Positions 13,332 through 34,554 of a DNA stretch of 64,000 nt are shown here, piece after piece. Each line of letters starts with the position of its first letter. Within the stretch, counting starts at the first letter, position 1. The stretch is from Chryseobacterium aquifrigidense (GTDB taxonomy: Bacteria; Bacteroidota; Bacteroidia; Flavobacteriales; Weeksellaceae). The stretch covers positions 1,611,096-1,675,095 of the forward strand of contig NZ_VFPD01000001.1 in assembly GCF_006716485.1 (NCBI RefSeq). Reading direction: 5' to 3'. Under the pieces are notes generated by a model. The model saw nothing but the letters and a program-made list of their open reading frames with translations, was not told the origin of the DNA and searched no databases. Both the position numbers and the translations under genes were made by a program.

Positions 13332-14075
13332 TTACTCTGAGCTGATTTTCTGATCAGCTTTTTTTCTTCTCATCGATTCCCCTGTAAGATCTATTCTCAG
13401 GGAGTTATGTACCATTCTGTCAAGGATTGCATCCGCTATTGTTTGTTCCGCAATCACTTCATGCCAAGCGCTTACAGGCAGCTGGGAAGCAATAATAGTT
13501 GAGCGTTTTCCGTGCCTGTCTTCTATAATTTCCATAAAATCCTGCCTTTTAAGATTATCCAGCGACTGTAACCCAAAATCATCAAGGATAATAAGATCCT
13601 GCTTTTCTATTCGGTCAATCTCTTTAAAATAAGAGCCGTCTGCCTTAGCCATTTTAAGCTTTGAGAAGAGTTTATTGATGCTGAAGTACATAACTTTATA
13701 TCCCATTGTACAGGCTTTGTAGCCAATGGCAGTTGCAATAAAACTTTTTCCAACTCCTGTACTTCCTGTAATAAGAATATTCTGTTTCTGAGAGATAAAA
13801 TCACAGGAAGATAACCTTCCAATAGTATTCTTATCAATATTCCTGGAAGAAGAGGCTGTGATCTCTTCTATAAATGCCCTGTATCTGAACTTAGCTGTGA
13901 TAATCAATCTCTCTACCTTTATGCTTTCCCTGTCGTCATACTCGGATTCAATTAAGTAGGCTATAAGTTCATCATTGGTATAGGAAACACTTCCTGTTTC
14001 CATTGTTGTGGAAAAAGCCCTGTGCATCCCGTGGAGCTTTAAATGTTTCATTTTTTCTAATGTTGCCTGATTCAT
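13332..14075 (-). CDS. istB: IS21-family helper ATPase IstB
   Basis: A 247 aa AAA+ ATPase that assists the IS21 transposase in target capture. Walker A reads GSTGVGKS (residues ~104-111) and Walker B LIILDDFGL (~165-173); the C-terminal LTGESMRR motif is typical of IstB. Length and N-terminus (MKHLKLHGM) are normal, so the gene appears intact. It lies 41 nt downstream of the istA stop, in the usual istA-istB order. An internal Met eight residues in (MKHL) is an alternative start. Confidence 0.92.
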   Translation of the reverse strand: MNQATLEKMKHLKLHGMHRAFSTTMETGSVSYTNDELIAYLIESEYDDRESIKVERLIITAKFRYRAFIEEITASSSRNIDKNTIGRLSSCDFISQKQNILITGSTGVGKSFIATAIGYKACTMGYKVMYFSINKLFSKLKMAKADGSYFKEIDRIEKQDLIILDDFGLQSLDNLKRQDFMEIIEDRHGKRSTIIASQLPVSAWHEVIAEQTIADAILDRMVHNSLRIDLTGESMRRKKADQKISSE

Positions 14076-14116
14076 AGGTTTCGTATTAATGATTTAATTG
14101 TTAATGATTGTAGATG

Positions 14117-15677
14117 TTACTGATAGTATTTTCCGCCTCTTATGTTTTTGTGTTTAGGCAGTTTCTTTTCTTCAAAAAATGCATCGTCATCGGTGAGATT
14201 ATCCAGACCTCTTTCCAAGATACTTTTAATCATGGCTAGGCTGTATTTTTCATATCCCAATGCTCTTTTACAGGCATTGTCAAGTCTTATGCTGCCAATC
14301 TTTTTTGATAATGAAAGGATTCCCAGGGCAGGTTTTATAGGATTGCTCAGGATGCTGTTTCTTTTCCAGGATTTTGATGATGTACTGTTCACAATATTCT
14401 CCAACAGACCTTCCCCAAGAGATAAACCGGGATGGATTCCATTCCGTCATAAACTGATAAGATGAAGGCATATGTTCTTTTACGGTCGTATACTGATATT
14501 TGGCCAGGATTCTGTTGTGGAATGCTATTCTGCGCTGGTCATAGTAGATCTCGACCGTGTTTTTACTAAAAATAATGTTTACTTTTTTACCAATATAGCT
14601 GAACGGAACACTGTAATAATGCTGGTCTTTGCTTAAATATACATGGCTGGTCTTATGAACAGTGGCACGTACAGAATGCTTGAGTTGGTACATCATAGCG
14701 GGTAGTGGGGATAATGCATGTCTTTCAACCTCACGGAAAACATCAGCCCTGGAATACTTCTTTCTTTTCATGGGAGCTTCATTATATCCTTCCAGCAGGT
14801 TTTCTATAGCTTTGTTCAATGCTTCCAAGCTAAAGAAGTGATCTTTACGCAATGGAGCAAAAATGCGGGTATAAACAATACGTACCGCATTCTCAACCAA
14901 AGCCTTGTCCTTGGGATGATAGGTACGAGTAGGAAGTATTGTAGTGCTATAGTGGGAAGCAAAATCCAGAAGGGAATCAGTGATGACAGGTTCGTACTTA
15001 TGACTTTTTTTTACCGCTGTACGCAGGTTATCGGTAACAATAGCTGCGGGAACTCCTCCATAATAATGCAGGGCTTTGGTAAGGCTTCCAAGAAAATCTT
15101 CTTTTCCTTGGGTTCTTGTAGCTTCTACGAAGGTCATGCCACTGGCTCCAAGTATCGATACGAAGATCTCGACTTCCTGTTGTTCTCCTGTTTCTTTATC
15201 AATAATGTGAAGTTTTTTTCCTGTATAATCCACAAAAAGTTTATCCCCTGCCTTATGTTCAATATGCATGGAGGGGTTCACCTTTTTACACCATTCCCTG
15301 TAATGATGACAAAAGCGGGAATATTGGTAGCCCAAAGGGTACTTCTCTATGTATTCTTCCCATAGCAGATAACGGGTAACACCTACACGTTTTAGTTCTA
15401 TGGATATGTAAGGAAACAACGATTCAAGCTGTTTTTTGATACTGTCCTTATCCCTTATAGCGGTTGGCGGAGTCTCAAATAAATCATCTAAATCTTCATC
15501 ACTCAGCTCTATCAGCTCCTCATACGTAAGCTGGTGTTCATTGAACAGGCTGATATACTTTTTGGCAGTATTGCGTGAGATACCCAGCTGTTTGCTTATC
15601 TGCAATTTACTTACTCCCTGGGTGTATAATCGTAATAATTGTTTGATGTTCAACATGTCTATTCTTTTGTTAGCCAT
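14117..15677 (-). pseudogene. istA: IS21-family transposase istA, broken by one frameshift
   Basis: The first 465-codon frame holds an N-terminal helix-turn-helix (GVSKLQISKQLGISRNTAKK), and a DDE integrase core with FVDYTG, AAIVTDNLRTA and the E in HPKDKALVENAV. At about 14325-14330 the frame leaves the family pattern after YKTC, while the other frame (14404 down to 14117) continues with GILSLSKKIGSIRLDNACKR to a normal IstA end. The sequence TGCCCTGGG has one C more than needed to join the two frames. Only the region after the catalytic core is lost. A programmed shift or a read error cannot be excluded. Confidence 0.85.
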
Positions 15678-23342: not shown

Positions 23343-23508
23343 CTCCCCTACTGTTTACATCCGTCAATTATTTCATTAACAGTCATTTATCCAAAGTTAG
23401 TCTATTAAATCGGAAATATCTATGATTTATACAACAAATTAAAAGACAATTGCAAAGCTTTCCTTTTTTAATGATTGAAATTTACAGGTAACAAAAAAAT
23501 ATTTCACA

Positions 23509-23640
23509 ATGTCAAAAGAAAAAGACGGAAAAAAGAAATCAGATAAAACCCCACCCGCAAAATCTGCAAAAGAGAAACGGGAGGATAAAACGAGTAAACG
23601 AAGAGAAAGGGAACAAGAAGCCCGAAATACCGGCAACTAA
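23509..23640 (+). CDS. Small highly charged protein
   Basis: A 43 aa open frame, MSKEKDGKKKSDKTPPAKSA and so on to RNTGN, made almost only of Lys, Arg, Glu, Asp and Ser/Thr. Its stop codon directly abuts the ATG of the GH130 gene (23641), which suggests translational coupling. It has no hydrophobic core and is probably disordered; such peptides occur in stress-related operons of Flavobacteriia, but no family is assigned. Conservation would be the test. Confidence 0.6.
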   Translation: MSKEKDGKKKSDKTPPAKSAKEKREDKTSKRREREQEARNTGN

Positions 23641-24669
23641 ATGGTATCCTTGAAAAAAGATGGAATTATACTCAGAAAAACAACATTAGACTTTGAGAGT
23701 GAAGGAGTTCTAAATCCTGCAGTCATTCAGGATAACGGAAAAATACATTTATTATACAGGGCTCTTGCCAGGAATAACTTCTCGAGTATCGGATACTGTA
23801 TATTATCGGATTATAAGACTCCTGAAATACGGCTCAGCAATCCGGTTATTATCCCTGAATTTGAATACGAAAAACACGGTGTTGAAGATCCAAGAATTGT
23901 CAAAATCGATCACTTATTTTACCTTACTTATACCAGTTATGACGGGGTTAATGCATTGGGTGCACTTGCCGTATCTAAGGATCTAATATCATGGCAAAAG
24001 CTAGGAATCATTGTGCCAAAAATTCCATACAAAAAGTTTAAGCTTTTAGCAGAATCTCAAGGTGAAATAGGAGAAAAGTACAGACGTTTCAACAAACTCC
24101 CGCATACTCATATAAAGGATAAAGAGGTCTTCCTTTGGGATAAAAATGTGATATTTTTTCCAAGAAGAATTAATGGTAAGCTTTATTTTCTACATCGCAT
24201 AAGGCCTGATATCCAAATTGTAAGGATAGAAAAGATTGAAGATCTGAATCCTGATTTCTGGAAAGACTACTTCCTTCATTTTAAAGAACATATTGTATTA
24301 TCTCCCAAATATGAGCATGAAGTAAGCTATATTGGCGGTGGATGCCCCCCTATAGAAACTGAGCATGGATGGCTTTTAATCTACCATGGTGTACATGATA
24401 CCATTGAAGGATATGTTTACAGCGCATGTGCTGCTTTACTGGATCTTGATACTCCTGAAAAAGAAATTTCAAGACTTCCTTATCCTCTTTTCAAGCCCGA
24501 TGAAGAATGGGAACAGAAGGGAGAAGTGAACAATGTCTGCTTCCCTACCGGAGCCATCGTAGAAGGACATACACTCCATATTTACTATGGCGCTGCTGAC
24601 AAAAGAATAGCTATTGCTTCTTTAAGCATCCCTGAATTACTGAAGGAATTACTACAGTACACATCATAA
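23641..24669 (+). CDS. GH130-family glycoside phosphorylase/hydrolase
   Basis: A 342 aa five-bladed beta-propeller enzyme of family GH130. Family hallmarks are NPAVIQDNGKIHLLYRA (residues ~23-39), HGVEDPRIVKIDHLFYLTYT (~80-99) with the conserved ED(P)R, and IGGGCPPIETEHGWLLIYHG (~230-250). GH130 members phosphorolyse or hydrolyse mannosides; which linkage cannot be read here. It begins immediately after the small basic protein and is followed 44 nt later by a glycosyltransferase, so the pair may make and recycle a mannose-containing oligosaccharide (inference). Confidence 0.88.
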   Translation: MVSLKKDGIILRKTTLDFESEGVLNPAVIQDNGKIHLLYRALARNNFSSIGYCILSDYKTPEIRLSNPVIIPEFEYEKHGVEDPRIVKIDHLFYLTYTSYDGVNALGALAVSKDLISWQKLGIIVPKIPYKKFKLLAESQGEIGEKYRRFNKLPHTHIKDKEVFLWDKNVIFFPRRINGKLYFLHRIRPDIQIVRIEKIEDLNPDFWKDYFLHFKEHIVLSPKYEHEVSYIGGGCPPIETEHGWLLIYHGVHDTIEGYVYSACAALLDLDTPEKEISRLPYPLFKPDEEWEQKGEVNNVCFPTGAIVEGHTLHIYYGAADKRIAIASLSIPELLKELLQYTS

Positions 24670-24713
24670 TTGACTATTCTATACAGAATGTCAGGTTTAA
24701 AATAAATATCAAT

Positions 24714-26987
24714 ATGAATAAAAATATAAAATCAGACGTGGAGGAAAAGACAAAAAGACAATCTTTACAAAGTAATAAAAACACAATTAACTATAAACCT
24801 GAAATTATCTTTATAAGTACTTTTCCTCCCAAGGTATGCGGTATTGCAACATACTGTCAGGACTTGGTACAATCCCTTAAATTAAAATTCAGAGAATCAT
24901 TTAGCATCAGCATCTGCCCAATGGAAACTGAGGATGAGGATGAGCATTATCAATATGAAGATGATCCAGAATATCGCTTAAATACATCCGATGCCGTATC
25001 TTATCTGGAGCTGGCTGATAAAATCAATAAGAATAACAATATTCAACTGGTTATGCTCCAGCATGAATTTGGATTTTTCAACGAAACCCCCAACGGATTA
25101 CTGCTTTTTCTTCAAAATACAGAAAAAGATATCATCATTACTTTTCACACCGTTCTACCAAAACCGGATCGGGAATTAAAAGAAAAGGTAAAAGAAATCA
25201 GCAGTTTTGTAAAATCTATTATTGTAATGACCAGTATTTCTGCGGATATACTGAACAATGATTATGATATACCACCTGATAAAATTAAAGTGATACCCCA
25301 CGGCACCCATTTACTGCCATTTATCGATAAAATTTCACTGAAAGCGAAATACGGATTTAAAGATAAAAAAGTTCTTTCAACCTTTGGTTTACTGGGTTCG
25401 GGGAAAAATATTGAAACAACCTTAGAAGCTCTGCCTGAAATCATTTCCAAAAACCCGGATGTAATGTTTCTGATTATTGGAAAAACGCATCCCGGCATCA
25501 TTAAGTATGAAGGTGAGAAATATCGTGATTTTTTGAAGGATACTGTTAAGAGGCTCCATCTGGAAAATCATACTTATTTTATCAATCAGTACCTGCCTCT
25601 AGATAAGTTGTTGGATTATCTTCAGCTTACCAATGTCTATCTTTTCACTTCAAAAGACAGAAATCAGGCAGTAAGTGGTACTTTTTCGTATGCCATCAGC
25701 TGCGGATGTCCCATTATTTCCACGCCTATTCCCCATGCTTTGGAAGTACTGAATGAAGACCTGGGAATTATTATTGATTTTGAAGCTCCGAAGCAGCTTG
25801 CTGTTGCCGTAAATACATTACTAAAAAATGAAACTGTACAGGAAAAATTACGATCAAATAGTCTGGAAAAAATGGCTCCCACAGCCTGGGAAAATTCTTC
25901 TATTTCGCACGCCCTATTATTTCAACAATACAGCAAAGATAAAATGACATTACATTATACATTCCCCAACATTAATCTAAGCCATGTCAAAAATATGACA
26001 ACGGATTTTGGGATGATCCAGTTTTCTAAAATCAACAAACCTGATATCAATTCCGGGTATACTTTGGACGATAATGCCCGGGCTATGATTGTAGCCTGCA
26101 GACATTATGAGCTGAGCAGAGATGAATCTGATCTTGATTTAATCTCAACTTATCTGAAACTTATTAAGTTTTGTCAACAACCGGATGGAAGTTTTCTCAA
26201 TTATATAAATCAGTACAAGGAATTTGCTCAGCAGAATTATGAAACCAACCTTGAAGATTCCAATGGAAGAGCTATCTGGGCACTGGGATATCTTCTTTCA
26301 ATAAAAGCAATCTTACCGCAGCAGTTTTCTGATGAAGCAGAATCAATCATTGAAAAAAGTATTTCATCTATTGAGAATATCCATTCTACCCGGGCAATGG
26401 CTTTTATCATCAAGGGATTGCATTATCAAAACTCTGAAAACAATATTCCATTATTGAAAAAACTCGCCAATCGTCTCGTGAAAATGTATCAGCATGAAAA
26501 ACATAAAGACTGGCATTGGTTTGAAAACTATCTTACTTACGGAAACGGTGTACTCCCTGAAGCTTTATTGTGTGCGTGGATTACCACCAAGGATGAAATG
26601 TATAAACAGGTTGCCGATGAATCATTCAAGTTTTTGCTTTCTAAAATATTTAGTAAGGGCGGCATCAAAGTAATCTCCAATAAAGGATGGCTACAGAAAG
26701 AAACGGTTAAAAGTCCTGAATCAATTGGCGGGGAACAGCCCATAGATGTTGCTTACACCATACTTGCATTATCTACATTCTACAAGGTTTTTAAGGATGA
26801 AAAATATTTGCAGATGATGAGGAGTGCTTTTAGTTGGTTTTTAGGAAAAAATTATTTACATCAGATTATTTATAACCCTGCAACAGGTGGATGTTATGAT
26901 GGGCTTGAAGAGAAAAATGTCAATCTCAATCAGGGAGCGGAATCAACAGTCAGCTTTCTCATGGCAAGGCTCTGTTTTACTAAATAA
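24714..26987 (+). CDS. GT4 glycosyltransferase fused to an alpha/alpha-toroid domain
   Basis: A 757 aa two-part protein. Residues ~25-400 form a GT4/GT-B glycosyltransferase: FISTFPPKVCGIATYCQDLV, HGTHLLPF, STFGLLGSGKNIETTLEALP and AVSGTFSYAISCGCPIISTP with the donor-binding region. Residues ~430-757 form a helical toroid resembling glycosidase or epimerase (alpha/alpha)6 folds: YTLDDNARAMIVACRHYE, DSNGRAIWALGYL, WHWFENYLTYGNGVLPEALL and ESIGGEQPIDVAYTILAL. The first half would transfer sugars; the second may bind or trim the product. It is cytoplasmic, with no signal peptide. It is the last gene of the GH130 operon. Confidence 0.85.
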   Translation: MNKNIKSDVEEKTKRQSLQSNKNTINYKPEIIFISTFPPKVCGIATYCQDLVQSLKLKFRESFSISICPMETEDEDEHYQYEDDPEYRLNTSDAVSYLELADKINKNNNIQLVMLQHEFGFFNETPNGLLLFLQNTEKDIIITFHTVLPKPDRELKEKVKEISSFVKSIIVMTSISADILNNDYDIPPDKIKVIPHGTHLLPFIDKISLKAKYGFKDKKVLSTFGLLGSGKNIETTLEALPEIISKNPDVMFLIIGKTHPGIIKYEGEKYRDFLKDTVKRLHLENHTYFINQYLPLDKLLDYLQLTNVYLFTSKDRNQAVSGTFSYAISCGCPIISTPIPHALEVLNEDLGIIIDFEAPKQLAVAVNTLLKNETVQEKLRSNSLEKMAPTAWENSSISHALLFQQYSKDKMTLHYTFPNINLSHVKNMTTDFGMIQFSKINKPDINSGYTLDDNARAMIVACRHYELSRDESDLDLISTYLKLIKFCQQPDGSFLNYINQYKEFAQQNYETNLEDSNGRAIWALGYLLSIKAILPQQFSDEAESIIEKSISSIENIHSTRAMAFIIKGLHYQNSENNIPLLKKLANRLVKMYQHEKHKDWHWFENYLTYGNGVLPEALLCAWITTKDEMYKQVADESFKFLLSKIFSKGGIKVISNKGWLQKETVKSPESIGGEQPIDVAYTILALSTFYKVFKDEKYLQMMRSAFSWFLGKNYLHQIIYNPATGGCYDGLEEKNVNLNQGAESTVSFLMARLCFTK

Positions 26988-30384: not shown

Positions 30385-30603
30385 ATGGACACAAACCACA
30401 ACAAAGGCAACCAATCTTTCAAAATTCCAGGAGACTGGGATGTGCAATCAAAACAATTGAAAGAAAAATTTTCAACATTAACGGACCACGACCTGAAGCT
30501 TGAAGAAGGTAAAGAAAAGGAAATGCTGGAAAGAATCGGAAACAGATTAAGAAAAAACCGTGAAGAAGTTCTCAATATTATCAAAGAAATCAATCTTTCA
30601 TAA
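30385..30603 (+). CDS. CsbD-like general stress protein
   Basis: 72 aa, with the helical CsbD pattern: IPGDWDVQSKQLKEKFSTLT, DHDLKLEEGKEKEMLERIGN and RLRKNREEVLNIIKE. Members of this family are small, very soluble proteins induced by general stress; their biochemical role is unknown. The upstream region is duplicated at 27.2 kb together with a broken copy of the gene. Confidence 0.82.
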   Translation: MDTNHNKGNQSFKIPGDWDVQSKQLKEKFSTLTDHDLKLEEGKEKEMLERIGNRLRKNREEVLNIIKEINLS

Positions 30604-30725: not shown

Positions 30726-31082
30726 ATGTTTAAACCCACAGTGATGAATCATAGAGAACTTGAAAAATCGAAAGTATATATTACAAGCCAGATTGTAGAT
30801 TACATTCCAAATTCTGTAGTCAGTAAAAATATACTTGAAAAACTGACCGGTAATATCAGTGTTTTATCTTTTGATGACAAAGAAGGGTTATCTGAAAAGA
30901 TATCTCCTTTCGATACTGTTGCACAGATCATTGAAGGTAAAGCTGAAATCATTATAGACGGAGCTTCTTACTTTATGGAAGAAGGTGAATGCATTATCGT
31001 TCCTGCCCATAAACGTCATTCAATAAAAGGAAATAAACGCTTTAAGATGATATTAACAATAATAAAAAGCGGCTATGAATAA
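30726..31082 (+). CDS. Cupin-domain protein
   Basis: 118 aa single cupin. The second half reads SPFDTVAQIIEGKAEIIIDG (residues ~60-79) and YFMEEGECIIVPAHKRHSIK (~82-101), the two cupin motifs; the first motif lacks the usual HxH, having SPFDT instead, so a bound metal is doubtful, while H97 and H/R of PAHKRH are retained. Small cupins of this type often act on or sense small molecules. The start could be the Met at residue 7 (MNHREL). The gene overlaps the next by 8 nt, which indicates co-translation. Confidence 0.75.
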   Translation: MFKPTVMNHRELEKSKVYITSQIVDYIPNSVVSKNILEKLTGNISVLSFDDKEGLSEKISPFDTVAQIIEGKAEIIIDGASYFMEEGECIIVPAHKRHSIKGNKRFKMILTIIKSGYE

Positions 31083-31305
31083 TCTAAACACTATATCTGT
31101 TTTAACGAAAAAGATATTTAAAAAAACAGTGGAAATCCAAAAAGAATTTCCTGAACTGTATGAACTTCTAGATGAAACTCCATTATTTTTTTCTGAGAAA
31201 GAAAAAAATATTACGATAAAAGATTTAAGACAATATCTTGTTTCCCTTATCATACAACAAAAATCCTTTGAAAAAGGAACTATGAAGAAAAATGATCTAC
31301 AATAA
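31075..31305 (+). CDS. Conserved-looking hypothetical protein
   Basis: 76 aa, MNNLNTISVLTKKIFKKTVE, acidic helical protein with no signal peptide or known motif (ELYELLDETPLFFSEKEKNI, DLRQYLVSLIIQQ). It overlaps the cupin gene by 8 nt and the next gene by up to 14 nt, so the three are one operon. Function is unknown. Confidence 0.6.
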   Translation: MNNLNTISVLTKKIFKKTVEIQKEFPELYELLDETPLFFSEKEKNITIKDLRQYLVSLIIQQKSFEKGTMKKNDLQ

Positions 31306-32153: not shown

Positions 32154-32417
32154 ATGAAAACAATACATCTCTTTCGGTTTAACGATTCTATTTTCCGTAA
32201 AATTCCTTTCTTCAAAGAAGAAAATAGGCTGAAAACCGATGTAACAGAAATTGATTTAATGAATATTGAAATAGTAACTGAATATATTGTGAAAACCCAT
32301 GATGACTTTAGTTTCGACAACACATCAGTAAATGATCTTTTATCGATGTGCAAGAAAGCTCAAAGAATAATTGAACATTACTTTATTTTGGGAGTGAATG
32401 GTTATGATGTTATTTGA
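32154..32417 (+). CDS. Small KTIHLF-type protein, copy 2
   Basis: 87 aa paralog of the product at 22003-22272: MKTIHLFRFNDSIFRKIPFF, KEENRL, DLMNIEIVTEYIV, HDDFSFD, DLLSMCKKAQRIIEHYF and a closing NGYDVI. The ATG corresponds exactly to the chosen ATG of the other copy. No known domain. It ends the cupin-hypothetical gene set, whereas the other copy precedes a CinA-type gene, so the shared element is the small protein itself. Confidence 0.7.
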   Translation: MKTIHLFRFNDSIFRKIPFFKEENRLKTDVTEIDLMNIEIVTEYIVKTHDDFSFDNTSVNDLLSMCKKAQRIIEHYFILGVNGYDVI

Positions 32418-33187: not shown

Positions 33188-33382
33188 TTACGCCAATTTT
33201 ACGTTGACAGCATTTAAGCCCTTGTCGCTCTTTTGTACATCAAAAACGACTTTATCATTTTCACGAATTGCACTTACGCTCAATCCTGAAGAATGTACAA
33301 ATATGTCCTTACTTCCATCTGCTGGAGTAATAAATCCGAAGCCTTTTGCTTCATTGAAAAATTTTACGGTGCCTTGTTGCAT
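33188..33382 (-). CDS. Cold-shock domain protein (CspA family)
   Basis: 64 aa single cold-shock domain that binds single-stranded RNA and DNA and melts RNA structure. RNP1 is KGFGFITP (residues 13-20) and RNP2 DIFVHSSGL (26-34), both intact; length is typical. It lies 50 nt downstream of the DEAD-box helicase gene on the same strand, a pairing usual for cold adaptation. The upstream helicase is broken, so the csp gene may now depend on its own promoter. Confidence 0.93.
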   Translation of the reverse strand: MQQGTVKFFNEAKGFGFITPADGSKDIFVHSSGLSVSAIRENDKVVFDVQKSDKGLNAVNVKLA

Positions 33383-33432: not shown

Positions 33433-34554
33433 TTATTTATAAAATGATCTGACCGGTACTGTAAATCCGAGCAGTTTTTGAATATTTTTAAGATCTAATC
33501 GCTCATCGGTATCGCAAAATGAAATAGCAGTACCTTCCATTCCTGCCCTTCCGGTTCTACCGATCCGGTGGACATAAGTTTCCGGGATATTGGGAAGCTC
33601 GTAGTTCACTACATGAGGAAGATCATCAATATCAATTCCTCTAGCTGTTATATCTGTAGCTATCAACACTTTAATCTTACTGTTTTTGAAATCATCAAGA
33701 GCATTCTGTCTTGCCATCTGAGATTTGTTTCCATGAATTGCTGCAGCAAAAATCCCTACCCTTCCAATTGCTGTACAAGCTTATTGGCAACATGTTTAGT
33801 ACGGGTAAAAACCAGTGAACGCATTATATGTTCATTTTGCAATAAATCAATTAGTAAACCTGTTTTTATCTTTTTTTTCCACAAAATAGACGGATTGTTT
33901 CACCGTTTGTGCCGTTGAAGATACTGGATTTACAGTAACCTCTACAGGATTATTCAGAATTGTTTCTGCAATTTTTTTTATCCATGCGGGCATTGTAGCT
34001 GAAAAAAACAAGGTCTGTCTCTTCTGAGGAATTAGCCTCAAAATTTTTTTGACATCATTGACAAATCCCATATCCAACATTCTGTCTGCTTCATCCAAAA
34101 CTAATATTTCTATTTTAGAAAGATCAATATGTCTTTGATTGGCCAAATCCAGTAATCTGCCTGGTGTAGCCACCAGAATATCTACTCTTTTTCTAAGGGC
34201 GGCAAGCTGATTTCCTGCTGCAACTCCTCCATAAATAGAAAACTGTGATAAAGGTAAATATTTGCTGTAAACAGCAAAATTCTCTTCAATCTGTATTGCC
34301 AGCTCACGAGTCGGTGTAAGTATTAATGTCCTTATTTCTTTATGTTCAGGAGTATATTTTTTTAACAGCTGCAGGATAGGCATTGCAAAAGCTGCCGTTT
34401 TCCCCGTTCCTGTCTGGGCACATCCTATAATATCTTTTCCGGCAAGAATATGCGGTATAGCGGAATACTGTATTTCAGTTGGCTTGGAATATCCTGACTC
34501 TGTTACAGCACGGATTATTGGATTAATTAAATTTAAACTTTTAAAACTCATCAT
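33433..34554 (-). pseudogene. DEAD-box RNA helicase (RhlE-like), two frameshifts
   Basis: The 5' part (34554 to 33847) encodes the first RecA domain with Q motif (SLNLINPIIRAVTESGYSKP), AQTGTGKT, PTRELA, DEAD and SAT. It stops at KDKNRFTN because of an extra T near 33853; the other frame continues RLLIDLLQNEHIMRSLVFTR and [15 protein letters not shown] second shift near 33767 moves to [14 protein letters not shown], and then the rest of domain 2 ([25 protein letters not shown]) to the stop at 33433. Two shifts within 90 bp make a functional full-length helicase unlikely unless they are sequencing errors. Confidence 0.85.

Follow-up and report, generated by a model that had tools for sequence, protein, structure and literature searches.

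In the Teth514_1788/1789 cluster of Thermoanaerobacter, as far as the accessible parts of PMC4264767 describe it, GH130 enzymes of the beta-1,2 lineage are encoded together with a GT4 gene and functions of guanosine diphosphate (GDP)-mannose metabolism, and a salvage role has been proposed for the cluster in the literature. A similar combination is met in an operon of Chryseobacterium aquifrigidense, which lies in the window analysed here, a stretch of 64,000 nucleotides (nt) of contig NZ_VFPD01000001.1; coordinates are positions within this window unless another locus is named. The operon encodes a small basic peptide, a GH130 enzyme and a fusion of a GT4-like domain with an (alpha/alpha)6 toroid. 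Whereas the Thermoanaerobacter cluster has an ATP-binding cassette (ABC) importer and a separate GT4 protein, the window operon has the GT4-toroid fusion, a tyrosine at position 230 of its GH130 enzyme (discussed below) and no importer.

Mycobacterial ManT and MmpH provide a precedent for the making and recycling of one mannan, the methylmannose polysaccharide, by a GT4 mannosyltransferase and a mannan hydrolase (PMC9883506). The ManT structure 7qsg matches the GT4-like half of the fusion with a Z score of 31.3 and the MmpH structure 7qsj the toroid half with 24.5, as fold matches only. Unlike the fusion, they are separate proteins; ManT has both glutamates of the GT4 motif, the four-gene cluster includes methyltransferases and no GH130 gene, and MmpH is not the best match of the toroid. 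In Leishmania, GT108 proteins with GH130-like five-bladed propellers make and degrade a beta-1,2-mannan reserve, mannogen (review, PMC8950772, in its accessible parts). The 25 Protein Data Bank (PDB) matches of the GH130 profile with E up to 0.1 included no GT108 chain, which does not exclude membership. We know of no GT4-toroid protein in the turnover of mannogen. The toroid itself has a single clear solved sequence relative, which is also its best fold match, YPO2471 (PDB ID: 7tem); unlike the fusion, this is a stand-alone protein annotated as exported, and its function is unassigned. YPO2471 was not named in the open-access literature searched.

The comparison of sequences and loci presented below gives good support to the view that the GH130 enzyme and the GT4-toroid fusion are functionally coupled, and it makes mannose the likely sugar. 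The best reading, and the most economical one, is intracellular synthesis and trimming: the operon would encode a module that acts in the cytoplasm, building a mannose-containing oligosaccharide and trimming it, a reading to which we give about an even chance. The sequence-only reading had proposed a system that makes and recycles a mannoside; the coupling is borne out by the recurrence of the pair and by the exchange of its GH130 partner, and the sugar is probably right, whereas the use of GDP-mannose has become doubtful.

The fusion is widespread. A full-length copy was found in 53 of 296 Bacteroidota genomes, including its own, and any match in 199, mostly to parts of the protein. On plasmids, matches were found in 29 records, and 24 of these cover 80% or more of the fusion; they belong mostly to Sphingomonadales and Hyphomicrobiales and also to Ilyobacter and Deinococcus, and the annotated ones name the protein merely 'glycosyltransferase family 4 protein'. 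When one genome per species was scanned, at least 569 stretches matched the fusion, in which a single gene may count twice, and 80 loci were kept from these. The set used in what follows comprises 149 loci: the window, 11 loci of its family (L032-L042), a further 60 (L084-L143) and, from the 80, the 77 with a full-length open reading frame (ORF), which L175, L184 and L215 lack; the partial or split matches L144-L146 are not part of it. The loci are not independent of one another: L033 is identical to L147. Among the papers listed in searches of the open-access literature, no title or abstract opening showed a GT4-toroid fusion. The pair would represent a widespread form of GH130 and GT4 mannan metabolism that is uncharacterised as far as searched.

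A GH130 gene lies within the fetched flanks of 122 of the 149 full-length fusions. It is on the same strand and overlaps the fusion gene or lies at most 20 nt from it in 86 loci; among the 109 same-strand nearest pairs, 103 are no more than 150 nt apart and 62 overlap or have no gap. The commonest arrangement is a short GH130 gene directly upstream on the same strand (79 loci), followed by directly downstream short (12) and long (10) genes and directly upstream long ones (2); the remaining linked genes are farther away or on the other strand. A rough estimate of the chance expectation, assuming that a genome of 4-5 Mb has a few GH130 genes and that about 16 kb is viewed, is about 0.5-2%. Co-occurrence points the same way. 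In 17/17 genomes whose fusion is close (54% identity or more), namely 14 genus mates and 3 further family members, the GH130 ortholog lies next to it, and a long GH130 gene stood beside a more distant fusion in 3/3 genomes. Among genus mates without the fusion the ortholog was found in 0/12, six of which had only a GH130 of about 37-40% identity and six none; given the relatedness of these genomes and the adjacency of the genes, the sample is not independent. A chance neighbourhood of the two genes was ruled out by the pairing counts, the co-occurrence and the partner exchange.

This exchange became apparent when the GH130 partners were typed by one diagnostic residue, at the position of Tyr230, as A (Tyr/His), B (Lys/Arg) or C (Gln, mostly long enzymes). 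The types are close to clades on the GH130 tree, with 2, 3 and 2 label changes for A, B and C, respectively. On the fusion tree, the type of the nearest partner changes 10 times, compared with a mean of 37 and a lowest value of 32 after shuffling; this count covers 118 typed loci (A 77, C 26, B 15) without the untyped L166, L223, L224 and L226, and it rises to 30 if 'none' and mixed labels are counted as states. Both trees were built with FastTree and have many open forks. Three GH130 lineages have thus replaced one another as partners several times while the fusion kept a GH130 neighbour, and because the pairing outlasts the replacement of the GH130 lineage, the functional link between the two proteins is strong.

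The window GH130 enzyme matches PF04041 with 170.9 bits (cut-off 26). Its nearest solved relative in a search with profile A5 is the 1,2-beta-oligomannan phosphorylase 9fj8 (E 6.1e-66), followed by the beta-1,2-mannobiose phosphorylase Teth514_1789 (7fip, E 9.8e-63). Asp83 in the motif GVEDPR is invariant in the 12 sequences of A5, and His185-Arg186 is kept. Lys168 aligns with a lysine in 9fj8, 7fip, Lin0857 (5b0p) and Uhgb_MS, whereas the beta-1,4 enzyme TM1225 has arginine. In the accessible text of PMC4599007, the invariant aspartate (Asp142 of BT3780) is described as the candidate catalytic acid of GH130, and Cuskin et al. propose the lysine at the position of Lys168 as a determinant of beta-1,2 specificity. 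The family, Lys168 and the nearest solved relatives all favour mannose as the sugar, as had been proposed from the sequence. The same genome has a second GH130 gene (L043, 10427-11398) with arginine at the Lys168 position, as in TM1225, so that it appears beta-1,4-like; no fusion partner was found within the 19 kb read around it.

The N-terminal part of the fusion matches PF00534 with 65.2 bits (cut-off 26.4). A model of the whole protein, based on 42 sequences, had a mean predicted local distance difference test (pLDDT) score of 89.8 and a predicted template modelling (pTM) score of 0.88. Residues 27-410 fold like HepE, MshA, PimA and PimB' (Z 33-35) and ManT, and residues 418-757 match 7tem with a Z score of 38.2, in agreement with the earlier description of the 757-residue protein as a sugar transferase joined to a glycosidase-like toroid. 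In the canonical EX7E motif the glutamates are Glu274/Glu282 in PimA and Glu316/Glu324 in MshA; mutation of the second glutamate of ManT abolished activity and mutation of the first strongly reduced it, and ManT also appears to lack the arginine of the R/K pair, to judge from its authors' list of retained residues (PMC9883506). Alignment to MshA places Gln318 and Tyr326 of the fusion at the two glutamate positions. The R/K-pair lysine is present as Lys231 in all 149 fusions, and the arginine position is leucine in 141. The strictly conserved residues of this domain are His145, His196-Gly197, Lys231, Gly256-x-Thr-His-Pro, Gln318, Ser321-Gly-Thr and Tyr326. By its sequence the fusion is no canonical GT4 enzyme, though its own residues are strictly conserved.

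A separate GT4 protein of about 335 residues is encoded near 15 of the 149 loci (among them L112, L118 and L120, along with others whose GH130 gene is long), and the canonical motif was present in 9/9 of those inspected. The GH130 partner is type C in 13 of these 15 loci. This GT4 protein, the fusion and the type C enzyme together suggest a three-enzyme version of the module. In L248 (2999-5301), a close relative of the window locus, the fusion gene is divided into two ORFs by a frameshift near residue 220 and the GH130 gene is intact.

When modelled alone, the toroid reached a pLDDT of 93.1 and again matched 7tem best (Z 38.1), followed by the exo-glucosidase/glucosaminidase VC0615 (29.6), an endoglucanase-related protein (28.9), cellobiose 2-epimerases (27-28), GH76 entries (23-26.5) and MmpH. 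By sequence, 7tem was the only clear solved relative (E 1.3e-20, profile search). Asp453, Asn454, Arg456, Arg519, Trp602, Glu604, Tyr609 and Asn611 are present in 149/149 fusions. The resemblances to GH88, C5-epimerase, GH127 and GH76 families are all weak in sequence; of 29 members, 12 matched PF07470, 7 PF06662, 4 PF07944 and 2 PF03663. Epimerases of the AGE and cellobiose 2-epimerase type have a conserved catalytic histidine pair, and the titles of cellobiose 2-epimerase structures among the toroid matches name H247 and H248 mutants. From residue 411 onward the only histidine of the fusion conserved to at least 93% is His424 at the start of the domain (68/72). An AGE-type epimerase was therefore rejected as an identity of the toroid: the fold fits (Z about 27-28), but the histidine pair is missing.

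In the preferred reading, the small basic peptide would be translated first, coupled to the GH130 enzyme, and the divergent AraC-type gene would control the operon. The GH130 enzyme would act on a beta-1,2-mannosidic bond and so shorten a chain, or extend it if mannose-1-phosphate is still usable. The GT4-like domain would transfer mannose to the same glycan, in the alpha configuration should it act as other GT4 enzymes do, and the fused toroid, as a glycoside-cleaving domain, would trim the product or reset its length, placing synthase and trimmer in one chain. Synthesis and trimming of a mannoside is supported by the recurrent pair, by the rarity of SusC- and SusD-like neighbours and by strictly conserved residues resembling active sites in both enzymes, and further by the proximity of the GT-B fold to the mannosyltransferases PimA, PimB' and ManT and of the toroid to GH76 mannanases and MmpH. 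The choice of mannose is strengthened by genes for GDP-mannose supply that neighbour the pair in Sphingobium and partly also in Sphingomonas, and by homologues of ManC and of phosphoglucomutase/phosphomannomutase (PGM/PMM) elsewhere in the window's own genome. If the reading holds, an unrecognised intracellular carbohydrate store or protectant would be present in several phyla, and under the same condition the near-invariant QX7Y motif would offer a natural test of the role of the EX7E glutamates in GT4 enzymes.

Several observations weigh against this reading. Gln318 is glutamine in 149/149 fusions and Tyr326 tyrosine in 148/149, and because both EX7E glutamates are replaced, including the one that contacts the ribose, transfer from GDP-mannose by the GT4-like domain is not assured and is probably to be doubted. 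In the GH130 enzyme, Tyr230, located just before the IGxG/VGxG motif, occupies a position that is basic in all seven phosphorylases and synthases compared: lysine in UhgbMP, TM1225, 5ayd (RaMP2) and 7fip, and arginine in Lin0857 (which we take to be a phosphorylase), 9fj8 and Uhgb_MS. Among the 122 nearest partners this residue is Tyr in 59, Gln in 26, His in 18, Lys in 15 and Asn in 3, with one unread. The basic residue may be inferred to bind phosphate, because the hydrolases described in the accessible text of PMC4599007 have lost basic residues, and with Tyr230 in its place the reversibility that the sequence-only reading had assumed for the enzyme is doubtful, as is phosphorolysis. The window enzyme also missed the cut-off of the NCBIfam equivalog for beta-1,2-mannoside phosphorylases, NF052550 (188.6 vs 450 bits). 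The best match of the toroid, 7tem, lacks an assigned function, and glucosidase-like and AGE-type epimerase structures outscore mannanases. No linked GH130 gene was found in the flanks of 27 of the 149 loci; when 12 of these 27 genomes were searched, all 12 carried a GH130 gene elsewhere, about 8-10 kb from the fusion in two and, as a type-A-like gene, about 310 kb away in one. Genes for mannose supply lie near only 3 of the 149 loci, all among the seven fetched plasmid loci (by gene, in phmmer searches with Sphingobium queries, ManC 2, mannose-6-phosphate isomerase 2 and phosphomannomutase 1), and the assignment of mannose therefore rests mainly on GH130. Lipid-transport genes of the MlaE type occur near 29 of the 149 loci and hint at a lipid, and homologues of glycogen synthase in the same genome make another reserve available.

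The MlaE genes bear on an alternative in which the GT4 protein would mannosylate a lipid or capsule precursor and the GH130 enzyme would edit it in the cytoplasm. In an earlier clustering, 20 of 26 loci had MlaE on the same strand and downstream, accompanied by MlaD and an ATPase gene in similar numbers, and the lipid mannosyltransferases PimA and PimB' are among the nearest GT-B folds. However, MlaE neighbours are restricted to loci with type A partners or unlinked fusions and are perhaps shared by descent in Flavobacterium-like loci, and in our judgement a toroid fused to a transferase fits a soluble oligosaccharide better, which leaves a surface glycan or glycolipid unlikely, but a possibility to be taken seriously. 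Somewhat less probable, in our estimate, is a widespread bacterial counterpart of mannogen, a cytoplasmic mannose-based reserve or protectant in which a new QX7Y clade of GT4 proteins, possibly without a nucleotide-sugar donor (for example driven by mannose-1-phosphate), would act with its own toroid and with GH130 enzymes of altered phosphate site.

Degradation of imported beta-mannosides by the GH130 enzyme for GDP-mannose, with the GT4 protein spending the pool elsewhere, would agree with the Teth514_1788/1789 cluster, where a mannose-1-phosphate guanylyltransferase and a GT4 gene are present (PMC4264767, accessible parts), and with the usual lysine in type B partners. Yet that cluster has five ABC transporter genes according to the same text and the window operon none, and Tyr230 disfavours phosphorolysis in the window enzyme. 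SusC-like genes lie near just 4 of the 149 loci and SusD-like genes near 1 (one query each, E up to 1e-8); the window operon is not among these loci and has no transporter gene within it. There is thus only a slim chance that the operon serves salvage. On the same counts a dietary glycan or polysaccharide utilisation locus was rejected, and the operon does not look like the dietary-glycan case that had been named as refuting. The lowest probability is given to a GT4 domain that binds or serves as a scaffold and is no transferase, leaving toroid and GH130 enzyme to catalyse mannoside breakdown: both EX7E glutamates and the R/K-pair arginine are missing, whereas many polar residues of the toroid are identical, but conservation is as strict in the GT4 domain as in the toroid and suggests an active site that works by a different chemistry. 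The features of the region are collected in Table 1.

Table 1. Features of the operon region and the basis of their assignment (positions in the window).
Feature	Coordinates	Strand	Remarks
AraC-type regulator, 186 residues	22782..23342	-	C-terminal HTH_18, PF12833 E 1.4e-15; divergent from operon
Intergenic region, AraC gene to operon	23343..23508		Blocks conserved in related loci (12-locus upstream alignment)
Lys/Arg-rich small protein, 43 residues, 16 Lys + Arg, 9 Asp + Glu	23509..23640	+	
GH130 enzyme, 342 residues	23641..24669	+	PF04041
Fusion of GT4-like domain and (alpha/alpha)6 toroid, 757 residues	24714..26987	+	
GT-B (GT4-like) domain, residues ~27-410	24792..25943	+	Fold matches, 149-sequence census, MshA alignment
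Toroid domain, residues ~418-757	25965..26984	+	Model, best match 7tem, 149-sequence census

The ORF coordinates agree with the layout read earlier from the sequence: the stop codon of the peptide gene abuts the ATG of the GH130 gene with 0 nt between them, the stop of the latter is followed after 44 nt by the ATG of the fusion gene, and a gene with an AraC-type helix-turn-helix domain adjoins the operon divergently. An AraC homologue is present in the fetched flanks of 29 of the 149 loci, with a similar divergent layout in the window, L032-L040 and L147. The upstream blocks are common to the 10 peptide-bearing loci among the 12 aligned and absent from L041 and L042. The peptide gene abuts the GH130 gene without a gap in 10/12 family loci and, among 18 fetched regions, in 13 of the 15 that were parsed; L234, L241 and L249 were left unparsed, and the peptide is nonetheless present in L234.

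The peptide gave no Pfam or NCBIfam match. Its residues 1-25 are identical in the eight closest parsed relatives, all changes falling behind residue 25, and comparison of its 44 codons with five family relatives gave 10-14 silent and 13-15 residue-changing differences. The gene is conserved, but because silent and residue-changing differences are about equal in distant relatives, only its first part is strongly held. The peptide has one match in its own genome, and similar peptides occur in the Bacteroidota loci L163, L173 and L214, where they do not abut a GH130 gene; it may therefore be a general small protein recruited to the operon. Two decayed copies of the operon were observed: in L044 (10396-10641) the GH130 similarity stops after about 39 codons and the peptide gene before it is intact, and in L249 (276-2599) it stops after about 55 residues, with no more than the final part of the fusion left.

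Of the clusters of neighbouring genes, 10 of 37 representatives were annotated by Pfam, in addition to AraC. On plasmid pSES220 of Sphingobium yanoikuyae the row reads groES, groEL, ManC, mannose-6-phosphate isomerase, fusion, GH130 and phosphomannomutase. In Sphingomonas paucimobilis, genes for DnaK, GrpE and a universal stress protein are near ManC, fusion and GH130, and the Rhizobium SL42 locus has an additional AGE-type epimerase. A link to stress comes from such neighbouring genes only. Downstream of the window operon, three small genes on the plus strand (30385-30603, 31075-31305 and 32154-32417) resemble a set found in L249 next to the same AraC gene and the decayed operon, which suggests a conserved block, possibly related to stress. 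A cold-shock-like gene (33188-33382) adjoins a gene on the minus strand (33433-34554) that by eye resembles a DEAD-box RNA helicase and is split over three frames, as in a recent pseudogene or through sequencing errors. Upstream of the region, an IS21-like pair of ORFs on the minus strand (13332-15677) was named by eye as an ATPase helper and a transposase-like ORF.

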